DNA of 36,504 nucleotides, from NCBI GenBank assembly GCA_027493295.1, contig JAPVWS010000049.1, forward strand, positions 1-36,504, in the 5' to 3' direction. Both the position numbers and the translations under genes were made by a program. This DNA is from Candidatus Versatilivorator vitaminiformans (lineage in GTDB: Bacteria; Acidobacteriota; Terriglobia; Versatilivoradales; Versatilivoraceae). Position 1 is the stretch's first letter, and each line of letters starts with the position of its first letter. Positions 22,836 to 33,726 of this stretch are shown piece after piece. The notes under the pieces are model-generated. The model saw only the letters and a list, made by a program, of their open reading frames with translations. It had not been told where the DNA came from and made no database searches.

Positions 22836-23993
22836 GTGTTCCGGGATACTCTGGGCCTGGCTTTGAAAAATGCTCTGCGCAACCGGCGTCGAACGCTGCT
22901 GACGGTTGCGAGCATCAGCATTTCCCTGTTTCTGCTGGGAGTACTCCTTTCGGTCTATCAGGCCTTCTACCATCAGGAAGGTCCTCCCGAGCAGGCCCTG
23001 CGGTTGGTGACCCGAAATCGGGTCTCTCTGACCTTCTCCCTTCCCGAATACTATGAACAGCAGATCCGCAAGGTACCGGGCGTGCGCGAACTGGTGCCCA
23101 CCTCCTGGTTCGGAGGGGTCTATATCGACAATCGACCCGAGAACTTCTTCCCTCGGTTCGCCACCGATCCGGAAAGGATCTTCGAGGTCTACAAGGAGTT
23201 CACGGTGCCTCCCGAACAGCTCCAGGTCTTCCAGTCGGAGCGCACGGCCGCGGCTGTCGGCAAGACTCTGGCCGAGCGACTCAGCTTCAAGCTGGGCCAG
23301 CGGGTCACCATCAAGGGGGACATCTACCCGATGGACCTGGAATTGACCATTCGGGCCATCTTTGAAAGCGATGTCGAAAACCAGGACTTCGCGATGTATT
23401 TTCACCGGAAATACCTGGAAGAGGGACTGCCGCAGTCCCGGCGCGGGATGGTAGGAACTTTTGGCATCCTGGCCGATTCCGCCGAGGCGGTGCCCCGCAT
23501 CGCAAAGCAAATCGACGATCTCTATCGGAACTCGGAGCGCCAAACCAAGACCGAAACCGAGCGGGCCTTCCAGTTGAGCTTCGTTTCCATGCTGGGCAAC
23601 GTCAAGGTGTTCCTGCTCAGCATCTGCGGTGCCCTGGTGTTCACCATTCTGCTGGTGGCCGCCAACACCATGGGTATGTCGGTGCGGGAGCGGATCACCG
23701 AAATCGGGGTGCTCAGGACGCTGGGATTCACCTCCGGCAGGGTCCTGAGCATGATCGTGGCCGAGGCCGTCCTGATATCCCTGGCAGGGGGCCTGTTGGG
23801 TTGCGGTCTGGCCTGGGGGGCATCGGGGTTTTTGCGACAGTCCCAGCTCATGCTTTCCGGGCTGTCCTTTTCGCCACCGGTGTTCCTGATCAGTCTGTCC
23901 ATTGCCCTGGCCATCGGTATCCTGAGTTCCCTGGTCCCGGCCCTGGGAGCGACCCGTCTGCCCATCACTTCGGCCCTTCGCCATACTGGGTGA
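22836..23993 (+). CDS. ABC transporter permease, FtsX/MacB type (first)
   Basis: A 385-residue permease with the MacB layout: one helix near the N-terminus (about 18-42, LLTVASISISLFLLGVLLSVYQ), a large extracytoplasmic domain (about 45-255), and three C-terminal helices with FtsX signature features (SVRERITEIGVLRTLGFTSGRVLSMIVAEAVLISLAGGLLG). It starts with GTG at 22836. With the second permease, the HlyD-type adaptor and the ATPase it forms a complete export set. The substrate is not evident; related systems move lipoproteins, peptides, glycolipids or antibiotics. Confidence 0.9.
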   Translation: MFRDTLGLALKNALRNRRRTLLTVASISISLFLLGVLLSVYQAFYHQEGPPEQALRLVTRNRVSLTFSLPEYYEQQIRKVPGVRELVPTSWFGGVYIDNRPENFFPRFATDPERIFEVYKEFTVPPEQLQVFQSERTAAAVGKTLAERLSFKLGQRVTIKGDIYPMDLELTIRAIFESDVENQDFAMYFHRKYLEEGLPQSRRGMVGTFGILADSAEAVPRIAKQIDDLYRNSERQTKTETERAFQLSFVSMLGNVKVFLLSICGALVFTILLVAANTMGMSVRERITEIGVLRTLGFTSGRVLSMIVAEAVLISLAGGLLGCGLAWGASGFLRQSQLMLSGLSFSPPVFLISLSIALAIGILSSLVPALGATRLPITSALRHTG

Positions 23994-24147
23994 CAGCCTT
24001 CTGTGCTCAAGGAGCAGCCGGACAGTGGGGGAAAATCGAGTGTGTCCGAAACCGATTGAAGCGTTTTGTTCGGAGCCCCTGTGGCCGGACAGTGTTCCTA
24101 ACCTCGGCCTGGATAGTTGAGGCGGTGGGAAAGCCCTGAGTCACGAT

Positions 24148-30599: not shown

Positions 30600-32369
30600 C
30601 TACCGGGCGCGCTGCCTGCCGGCGGCGATCAGCCACACGACGGCTCCCGCAATCAACAGGACGATGAACGTTCCCGGATTTATCCAGCCTTGCCGGGAAT
30701 GCCACACGATCGCATAACCCAAAGCGCCCGCCAACAGGGCATAGGTGGTGAAGGGAAGCAGGGTCAGGCGAATGATGGCGCCTTCCTTGCCGACCAGCCC
30801 CGCCACTGCCGAAGCCGCCACCACGTTGTGAACGCAGATCATGTTTCCGGCGGCTCCGCCCACCGCTTGCAGGGCCACCATCCAGACCGGATCCGCCCCG
30901 ATTCGCTGCCCGACACCAAACTGGAACAGGGAGAACATCATGTTGCTGACGGTGTTGCTGCCGGCGACGAACGCCCCCAGGCCTCCGATGAAGGGGGCGA
31001 AAATTGGCCAGGCGGTCTGGGCCAGGGCGGCCACGCCGGCGGCCAGCACGATCGGCATCTTGTCGTAGCCCGCCGCTCCTCCGTCCGAGTTGATGAATAC
31101 CTGCACCATGGGGACGGTGAAGATGAGGGCAACCGAGGCAGCCGCCGTGGTCCCGGCCGATTGAAAACACACCGCCCGGAATCGGGATAAACTCAACCGG
31201 TGGGCCCAGCAGGTCAAGACTGAAACCAGCAGGAATATGGTTCCGGGCAGATAGAGGGGCTGCACGCGGGCCGAGATCCCGGTGTCCAGGATGTGCGGGA
31301 AGGAAATGGTCCAGGCCCGAATCCATTCCTGAAAAGGAAGAAATCCCAGCCGGGTGAGTACCAGCAGCAGGCCTACCAGGAGATAGGGTGTCCAGGCTCT
31401 CAACAGTCCCATTGGGCGAGCTGGAGGCTCCTCTTTCAGACCAACCGATCCGGTCCAGTGGCCAGGCCAGTGTTCCGGAGCATCGAAATCCCATCGATCC
31501 TCGGACCGCGGCATGAAAATGCCTCTCTTGGCGGCAAAGATCACCAGAGCCAGTCCGATGAGCCCCCCGAACAGCGATGGGAACTCGGGACCCAGAAACC
31601 TGGCCACCAGCAGATAGGGCAGGGTCATGGCAAAGGCCGCCATCAGGGCAAAGGGCCATACCCGCAATCCCTCCGCCCAGGATCCGTTCTTGCCGAAGAA
31701 GCGGGTCATCAGCGCCACCACGAACAGCGGAACCAGGGTCCCGGCAGCGGTGTGCAGCAGCGCCACCCGGAATCCGATTTCGGAGAGGAATCCGTTCCAA
31801 TCGGCGAATCCGGCCTGCAGGGCAAAGGCCTGGATGGAGGCATCGGCGGCGAGCCCGCTGTTGACCCCGATCAGGATGGGTGTCCCCACGGCTCCGAAGG
31901 ACACCGGTGTGCTCTGAATGATCATTCCGGCCATGACCGCACCCATGGCCGGGAAACCCAGCCCCACCAGCAGAGGGACGGCGATGGCCGCCGGTGTCCC
32001 GAAGCCGGCCGCCCCTTCGATGAAGGTGCCGAACAACCAGGCGATGATCACCACCTGAATCCTCCGATCGGGAGTCACATGGGTGAACCCGCTTCGGATG
32101 GCCTGAATGGCGCCGCTTTGCCGCAGAGTGTTGAGCAGCAGGATGGCTCCAAAGATGATGTAGAGCAGGGTGGCGGCAACCACCAGGCCATTGATGGAGG
32201 CCGCGGCCACCTGTCGTGTCGGTACTTGCCACACCAACAGGCCGAGCGCGGCGGTTACCAGGTAGGCGATCGGCATGGCCCGCCTGGCGGGCCAACGCAG
32301 CAGCACCAGCAGCAGGGCTACCGCGACGATGGGGAGAGTGGCCAGCAGAGAGAGCGTGAAGGGTTGCAA
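30600..32369 (-). CDS. lctP: L-lactate permease (LctP/LldP family)
   Basis: A 589-residue membrane transporter with about fourteen helices. Family features include FGTFIEGAAGFGTPAAIAVPLLVGLGF, the STPVSFGAVGTPILIGVNSGL region, and GGLGAFVAGSNTVSNMMFSLFQFG near the C-terminus. It imports L-lactate, and often glycolate, with protons. I choose a TTG at 32369 because it begins right after the small gene at 32386-32538, has AGGTG at a good distance, and gives the usual short N-terminus (QPFTLSLLATLPIVAVALLL). An ATG at 32450 lies inside the small gene and lacks a ribosome site. No lactate dehydrogenase is adjacent. Confidence 0.93.
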   Translation of the reverse strand: MQPFTLSLLATLPIVAVALLLVLLRWPARRAMPIAYLVTAALGLLVWQVPTRQVAAASINGLVVAATLLYIIFGAILLLNTLRQSGAIQAIRSGFTHVTPDRRIQVVIIAWLFGTFIEGAAGFGTPAAIAVPLLVGLGFPAMGAVMAGMIIQSTPVSFGAVGTPILIGVNSGLAADASIQAFALQAGFADWNGFLSEIGFRVALLHTAAGTLVPLFVVALMTRFFGKNGSWAEGLRVWPFALMAAFAMTLPYLLVARFLGPEFPSLFGGLIGLALVIFAAKRGIFMPRSEDRWDFDAPEHWPGHWTGSVGLKEEPPARPMGLLRAWTPYLLVGLLLVLTRLGFLPFQEWIRAWTISFPHILDTGISARVQPLYLPGTIFLLVSVLTCWAHRLSLSRFRAVCFQSAGTTAAASVALIFTVPMVQVFINSDGGAAGYDKMPIVLAAGVAALAQTAWPIFAPFIGGLGAFVAGSNTVSNMMFSLFQFGVGQRIGADPVWMVALQAVGGAAGNMICVHNVVAASAVAGLVGKEGAIIRLTLLPFTTYALLAGALGYAIVWHSRQGWINPGTFIVLLIAGAVVWLIAAGRQRAR

Positions 32370-32385: not shown

Positions 32386-32538
32386 TCAGTTGGTTTTCTT
32401 GGGCCTTGGGTCGTTACGGTCCCACCATTTATGCCGGCGCCATGCTGCAATGAATTCCATAATTATGTGAAGTATGAACTCGTAGCAATTGACAACGATG
32501 TACACCACCGCTTTCAGAATGGGACTCCAGAATTCCAT
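32386..32538 (-). CDS. 50-residue membrane-associated protein upstream of lactate permease
   Basis: A short gene outside the usual size cut-off. Its ATG at 32538 has GGGAGA five nt upstream, and it ends 16 nt before the lactate permease start. The protein begins MEFWSPILKAVVYIVVNCYE, continues with a second hydrophobic stretch (FILHIIMEFIAAW), and ends in a strongly basic tail (RRHKWWDRNDPRPKKTN), a layout of one long or two short membrane-inserted helices with a cytoplasmic positive end. It is not similar to any family I can name. Good ribosome site, clean spacing and gene order suggest it is translated with the permease and may assist or regulate it. Confidence 0.65.
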   Translation of the reverse strand: MEFWSPILKAVVYIVVNCYEFILHIIMEFIAAWRRHKWWDRNDPRPKKTN

Positions 32539-32724
32539 GCGATTCTCCCATCGCAATCTTGCCGCGGACACACCCGGACACCGCCGAGTTTTTTGAAGGC
32601 AGGCGATGGCTTGGTGTAACATGGGCAGCATCCATGGGCCGGAACCGGGGCTGCCCCTTGCAGGCAATCGAGGACCCCCGAAGCAGTTTCCGGACCCAAT
32701 CCATATCCAAGCGAGGACGCGTCA

Positions 32725-33726
32725 ATGGCGAAAGTTTATCACGATGAAGATGCAGATCTGGCTCACCTGAAGGAAAAGAAAATTGCCATTATCGGCTACG
32801 GCAGTCAGGGACATGCCCATGCCTTGAATCTCAGAGACAGCGGACTGGAGGTGGTGGTCGGACTCTATGAGGGGAGCCGCTCCTGGGCCAAGGCCGAGGG
32901 CGAAGGGCTCCAGGTGGCCACGGTGGATGAGGCTTCGGCCCAATCCCAGGTGATCATGATCCTGGTTCCCGATCAGACGCAACGGGCGGTGTTCGAAGCC
33001 TCCATCAAGCCGCATATGTCGGCAGGAAAGACCCTGATGTTCAGCCACGGATTCAACATTCATTTCAGTCAGGTCGTGCCGCCGCCGGAGGTGGATGTCT
33101 CCATGATCGCTCCCAAGGGCCCCGGACACATGGTCCGCCAGGTCTACCAGGGGGGAGCAGGCGTTCCCGCTCTGGTTGCCATCGAGCAGGATGCTTCCGG
33201 CCATGCCCTCGACGTGGCGCTCGCCTACGCCAAGGGAATCGGCGCCGCTCGGGCAGGGGTGATTGAGACCACCTTCAAGGAGGAGACCGAGACCGACCTT
33301 TTCGGTGAGCAAGCCGTACTCTGCGGCGGGACTTCCGCCCTGGTCAAGGCCGGCTTCGAGACGCTCATCAAAGCCGGATACCAACCGGAAGTAGCTTATT
33401 TTGAATGTCTTCACGAGATGAAGTTAATCGTGGACCTCATGTATCAAGGCGGCTTGTCCTACATGCGCTATTCCATCAGCGACACGGCCGAGTACGGTGA
33501 CTACACCCGGGGGCCTCAGATCGTCAACCAGGCCGTGCGGGATGCCATGGACGACATCCTGGAAAATGTCTGCAACGGCAATTTCGCTCGGGAATTCATC
33601 CTCGAGAACCAGTCCGGGCGGGCTTCCATGAACGCCAATCGGCGCCGGGAGGCCGAACACCCCATCGAGCAGGTGGGCAAGGGACTGAGGGACATGATGA
33701 GCTGGATGAACAAGACGGAAAGCTAG
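32725..33726 (+). CDS. ilvC: Ketol-acid reductoisomerase
   Basis: A 333-residue class I enzyme of valine and isoleucine synthesis; it isomerises and reduces acetolactate or acetohydroxybutyrate with NADPH and Mg2+. The nucleotide-binding loop is [19 protein letters not shown] (about 22-40), followed by [12 protein letters not shown], the metal-site ETDLFGEQ (about 189) and [16 protein letters not shown] (about 226). Length and lack of the extra domain mark it as class I. It starts 43 nt before the next gene's region and leads an apparent ilvC-TIGR00300-leuA operon. Confidence 0.97.

Follow-up and report, generated by a model that had tools for sequence, protein, structure and literature searches.

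A 50-codon frame beside a lactate permease gene in Acidobacteriota: a candidate membrane peptide broken or absent in sister species that keep the permease

The spacer between the divergent genes lctP and ilvC of Candidatus Versatilivorator vitaminiformans contains a frame of 50 codons that has homologues in sister species, is broken or absent in four of the seven genomes of the genus, and stands beside a lactate permease gene that all seven keep. The window analysed here is the whole stretch of 36,504 nucleotides at the start of contig JAPVWS010000049.1; its genome is referred to as G000 and the six other genomes of the genus as G001-G006. We read the frame, tentatively and with close to even confidence, as a small gene confined to the genus, or what is left of such a gene, encoding a predicted single-helix membrane peptide; the gene would be in decay, dispensable and unconnected with lactate uptake. 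Almost as probable is a frame that stands open by chance in a neutrally evolving spacer. The sequence-only reading of this DNA had proposed a hidden small gene acting with the permease. Of this, the small gene is possible, and is weakly indicated by the frames in G002, G003 and (truncated) G001, by the ribosome-site and start signals, by in-phase indels and by a probable second copy elsewhere, but the role with the permease did not stand.

The frame runs from 32538 to 32386 on the minus strand, within a spacer of 355 nt, and translates to MEFWSPILKAVVYIVVNCYEFILHIIMEFIAAWRRHKWWDRNDPRPKKTN followed by a stop. Several features described from the letters alone were confirmed, namely the 50-residue frame itself, the GGGAGA 5 bases before its ATG, the gap of 16 nt between the end of its stop codon and the TTG start of the permease, and an abundance of basic residues in the C-terminal part of the peptide, which carries a net charge of +3 as a whole. 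GGGAGA falls within those 25-column windows that vary least in the segment (171 windows, four genomes). The hydrophobic character was also borne out, but as one helix and not as several segments: AlphaFold2, run on the single sequence, predicts a helix at residues 6-42 (mean pLDDT 87.6), and with a best 19-residue hydropathy of 1.75 the G000 peptide is predicted to have one transmembrane helix. The same measure gives 2.42 for G002 and 2.32 for G001 up to its stop, but 1.14 for G003, whose version lacks the hydrophobicity that the other three of the four keep. The coordinates of the frame and its surroundings are collected in Table 1.

Table 1. Features at the ilvC-lctP spacer of the window and at the second locus in sister genomes
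Feature	Coordinates	Strand	Remarks
LctP-family lactate permease gene (lctP)	30600..32369	-	start TTG 32369; Pfam PF02652 E 1.2e-106; TIGR00795 E 1.9e-103
50-codon frame, predicted single-helix membrane peptide	32386..32538	-	ATG 32538, stop end 32386; homologous frames in G002, G003, G001
GGGAGA, Shine-Dalgarno-like	32544..32549	-	5 nt 5' of frame ATG
Probable ilvC promoter, TTGAAG-N18-TAACAT	32593..32622	+	by eye; hexamers and spacing identical in G008 (another genus)
Divergent gene, presumably ilvC (ketol-acid reductoisomerase)	32725..33726	+	adjoins lctP in 7/7 genus genomes and in G008
Second-locus ORF	L158:1456-1590 (G005); L159:1498-1632 (G001); L163 about 825-980 (G002)		

The length of the frame alone is unremarkable, whereas the combination of its features is unusual, though picked after being seen. 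When the 355-nt spacer was shuffled 5000 times with its dinucleotides preserved, 66% of the shuffles contained an ORF of 50 residues or more on the same strand and 46% one that begins with ATG. Requiring an SD-like motif as well leaves 9%, and a hydropathy at least that of the real peptide, a criterion set post hoc, leaves 0.2%. The peptide has no match among solved structures up to E 1, and no match or known toxin family in Pfam and NCBIfam (the latter searched with the G000 peptide only). The G002 version gives weak Pfam matches to unrelated families only, all below the cut-offs, and no PHROGs match reaches the cut-off, the best (E 0.008) being a family of unknown function.

The permease was matched in all seven genomes of the genus, one such permease in each, with 93-96% identity to that of G000 in five of them; in G002 it is a 140-residue fragment at a contig end, 99% identical. 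Over the 21 pairs, lctP has dN of 0.003-0.042 and dS of 0.18-0.43, the pairs with G002 resting on 140 codons. An ATG start at 32450, which would put the beginning of the permease inside the frame, had been claimed. The codon there is TTG, the first codon of the longest permease frame, and we reject this start because no ATG is found at it and because the upstream permease frame is closed by a stop in G003 and G001. In four genomes, conservation shifts at TTG 32369, where 8 of the 18 columns ending in the start codon are variable compared with 9 of the 59 from there on.

The fate of the small frame is uneven across the genus. It is intact in G000 (50 residues) and in G002 and G003 (46 residues each). 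In G001 a stop follows codon 32, in G004 the start and 5' half are deleted, and in G005 and G006 the whole segment is deleted, with a junction common to both, so that the spacer measures 148 nt. An acidobacterial MAG of the genus (L030), the best-matching named record for the permease (94% identical), has a spacer equal to that of G006 letter for letter and was not counted again. An unrooted tree of lctP and ilvC gives (G000,G003),(G004,G002)98,((G005,G006)98,G001)100, and frames with SD and ATG occur in G000, G002, G003 and G001. Since the frame is thus found in every one of the three clades, the ancestor of the genus probably had it already, and parsimony would then suggest three independent inactivations in seven species. 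Rooting with G008, a genome of another genus of the same family, is unstable, the root falling beside G003 in one tree and beside G004 in the other.

Nothing in the rates and simulations demonstrates selection on the protein, as follows from the dN/dS values, the divergence scan and the neutral runs. The four frames differ by 0.26-0.36 of their nucleotides in the six pairs, with NG86 dN/dS of 0.71-1.68, and the variable columns at the three codon positions number 29, 22 and 22 of 47, with no excess at the third; neither measure reveals purifying selection on the frame. When neutral drift was simulated from G000, the frames of at least two of the three relatives stayed open in 13% of the runs (11-13% over all simulations), and the observed amino-acid similarity score was reached in 21%. 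These figures are what would be expected of a chance open frame in a neutral intergenic spacer, from which nothing is made and whose likeness between species is the common descent of the spacer. We hold such a frame to be a serious possibility, if short of an even one. The value of dN/dS near 1, the openness that neutral simulation can explain (P 0.11-0.13), the ease with which shuffled spacers yield 50-residue ORFs and the loss or breakage in four species all speak for it.

Other observations hint at a gene and fit a chance frame less well. The two indels within the frame, of 9 nt and 3 nt, are in phase. Hydropathy alone was reached in 2.5% of neutral runs from G000 and in 18% of those from G002, while openness and hydropathy jointly were reached in 0.8% (P 0.008) and 3.9% (P 0.039), respectively, with thresholds chosen post hoc. 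The block of SD and start is less variable than the interior of the frame (7 of 25 columns versus 60 of 101, Fisher P 0.007), but no such difference is seen against the spacer beside it (12 of 30 columns variable, P 0.40). Against the gene also stand the absence of hydrophobicity in G003 and the state of the second copy described below. The divergence scan, made in overlapping 141-nt windows along the window sequence with at least 110 bases aligned, is equivocal. Against G003, the segment 32441-32581 is the most diverged alignable stretch (0.338, with a 99th percentile of 0.199 over 944 windows), which plain neutrality would not predict; against G001, and in favour of a chance frame, its best overlapping 141-nt window diverges by 0.357, like other most diverged stretches, the maximum being 0.376 at 23981-24121 (1088 windows). 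The scan favours conserved places, in that certain other stretches could not be aligned and drop out of it. The tree of 32441-32581 pairs G003 with G001, unlike the species tree, and it is possible that allele exchange or a locally high rate underlies both this discordance and the divergence from G003.

Were the frame a decaying gene, it would be one of about 46-50 residues that the ancestor of the genus already had and that is now being lost, and its link with ilvC and lctP would be one of position only. If it is translated, initiation would be at ATG 32538, and residues 6-42 would insert into the inner membrane as a helix, with the charged tail on the cytoplasmic side. Such a peptide would have an activity that the cell can do without and that is unconnected with lactate uptake, like that of an orphan or type-I-toxin-like membrane peptide.

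A possible relative of the peptide lies elsewhere in the genus. We built a profile from the four frames and searched 200 genomes of the class at E<=0.01. It matched its own locus, intact, truncated or as a remnant, in five genomes, and only one other place, a hydrophobic ORF of 44-45 residues in G005 (E 1.5e-4) with a counterpart in G001 (E 4.4e-4). None of the 4994 pattern-preserving (hydrophobic/polar) shuffles that could be scored, out of 5000 made, reached the profile score of this ORF. Compared with single peptides, its shuffle P is 0.0002 for G002, 0.002 for G003 and 0.004 for G001, while against the G000 peptide by itself the resemblance is weak (P 0.045). G005 and G001 show 4 differences over the 138 sites of the ORF, of which two are silent, compared with 36 in 399 flanking columns (P 0.022), although part of those columns belongs to a neighbouring ORF. 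It is intact in these two genomes, frameshifted in G002, where the flanks are different, and was not found in the four genomes G000, G003, G004 and G006. From one hydrophobic helix and three genomes, it is probably a second copy of the peptide ORF, and its conserved frame argues against chance at the first locus. Some other matches, to the DNA or to the profile, that G002 and G004 gave (L169/L170, L164/L165) were set aside as pieces of larger, by eye unrelated-looking frames.

In G005 and G001 the second ORF is followed by what we take to be a GIY-YIG-like ORF and is preceded by a presumably YdeI-like ORF in the former and a presumably integrase-like ORF in the latter. A hydrophobic ORF of 17 codons also precedes it in both. 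The sole permease match of each of these genomes is elsewhere, and because the second copies lie apart from the permease, the second locus would favour a small family unconnected with lactate uptake. Members at the two loci would share a hydrophobic helix that has a glutamate within it and is followed by aromatic residues and a charged tail. It is possible, though less likely than not, that they form a genus-restricted family new to description, of predicted single-helix membrane peptides of 44-50 residues at two or more loci (beside lctP and upstream of the GIY-YIG-like ORF), each coming and going between sister species as a selfish or toxin-like element does. If true, the family would add one case, from acidobacteria that have been little studied, to those of tiny membrane peptides with fast turnover.

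AcrZ, KdpF and CydX, examples of the small accessory proteins with a single helix that belong to transporters and oxidases, have the size and the one hydrophobic helix in common with the peptide. These proteins are kept together with their partners, unlike the situation here, where four of seven genomes keep lctP with no intact peptide frame. The peptide resembles type I toxins (such as Ldr/Fst and Hok) in being short and hydrophobic, in its aromatic and charged C-terminus, in its intergenic position, in being often broken and in its possible second copy; the G000 version is a small hydrophobic peptide of the kind expected of such toxins. It differs from them in matching no family at the cut-offs of Pfam, NCBIfam (G000 peptide) and PHROGs. 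Fast change alone does not exclude function, since CydX is also reported to tolerate wide sequence change (PMC6005532). The ordinary class of the frame is that of orphan, lineage-restricted small membrane ORFs, from which it shows no clear difference, being genus-restricted in our searches, fast-evolving and present or absent among sister species. There is little or nothing out of the ordinary in it: a small frame that the species can lose, set in the spacer of two divergent genes, and perhaps a decaying genus-specific membrane peptide gene.

That the act of translating the frame, and not its product, tunes permease synthesis through coupling or opening of the ribosome site is improbable. The SD, start and stop codon are conserved in four genomes around a variable interior, and the stop lies close to the permease start, as a translated leader would have it. 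On the other side, lctP is kept where the frame is absent (G005 and G006) or lacks its start (G004), and SD and start vary no less than the spacer beside them. The leader folds no better than its shuffles (z +1.55; 192 of 200 fold at least as well), and a scan found no terminator. An RNA element was rejected likewise, there being no Rfam family at gathering score and no unusual fold; two families matched with E values of 1 or less, a CRISPR repeat (27.1 bits, cut-off 35) and a snoRNA (17.5, cut-off 60).

Least probable is the accessory subunit or regulator of the permease that the sequence-only reading had suggested. Position, orientation and a single predicted helix with a charged tail speak for it; comparison of the genomes makes a subunit unlikely, and we reject it because lctP is kept in genomes with the frame broken or gone (seven of seven against three intact). 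In our searches no such frame turned up beside LctP outside the genus. The finding that the sequence-only reading had itself named as telling against its proposal, the lack of a conserved frame close to lactate permeases of relatives, holds outside the genus within the reach of these searches, and for the most part inside it. Sister species can in this way test a convincing-looking small gene beside a transporter, where position and hydrophobicity suggest a subunit and the pattern of loss contradicts it.

The search beyond the genus, for homologues next to LctP genes, covered several samples. G008 has the only close permease outside the genus among 12 genomes of the family (72% identical); its two genes are divergent with 341 nt between them, and this spacer holds no such ORF. 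Neither the peptide search (101 genomes, its own included) nor the profiles (200 genomes of the class each) turned up a homologue next to LctP in any other genus. Peptide matches there had E values from 0.005 to 1, with no lctP match within about 1.5 kb on each side, and the profile had none at E 0.01 in a sample that may omit some genomes matched by the peptide. No such ORF was seen by eye upstream of 80 LctP loci of named genomes (79 outside the genus, L030 inside), although 46 of the 80, a few with short upstream sequence, have a same-strand ORF of 30-130 residues ending near the permease. A literature search found no small membrane protein upstream of a lactate permease; another led to work on human microproteins, and one on LldP with a small protein, operon or small subunit returned general papers.

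All seven genomes of the genus have ilvC and lctP side by side and divergent. A consensus promoter scan reported no promoter on either strand, the probable ilvC promoter at 32593-32622 included, and its silence does not speak against an antisense RNA of the kind that controls type I toxins. This candidate adjoins the segment deleted in G005 and G006 (L113, L114). The same deletion also takes a ribosome-site-like CAGGTGC before the TTG of lctP, and in these two genomes the permease gene begins beside the presumed promoter of ilvC.
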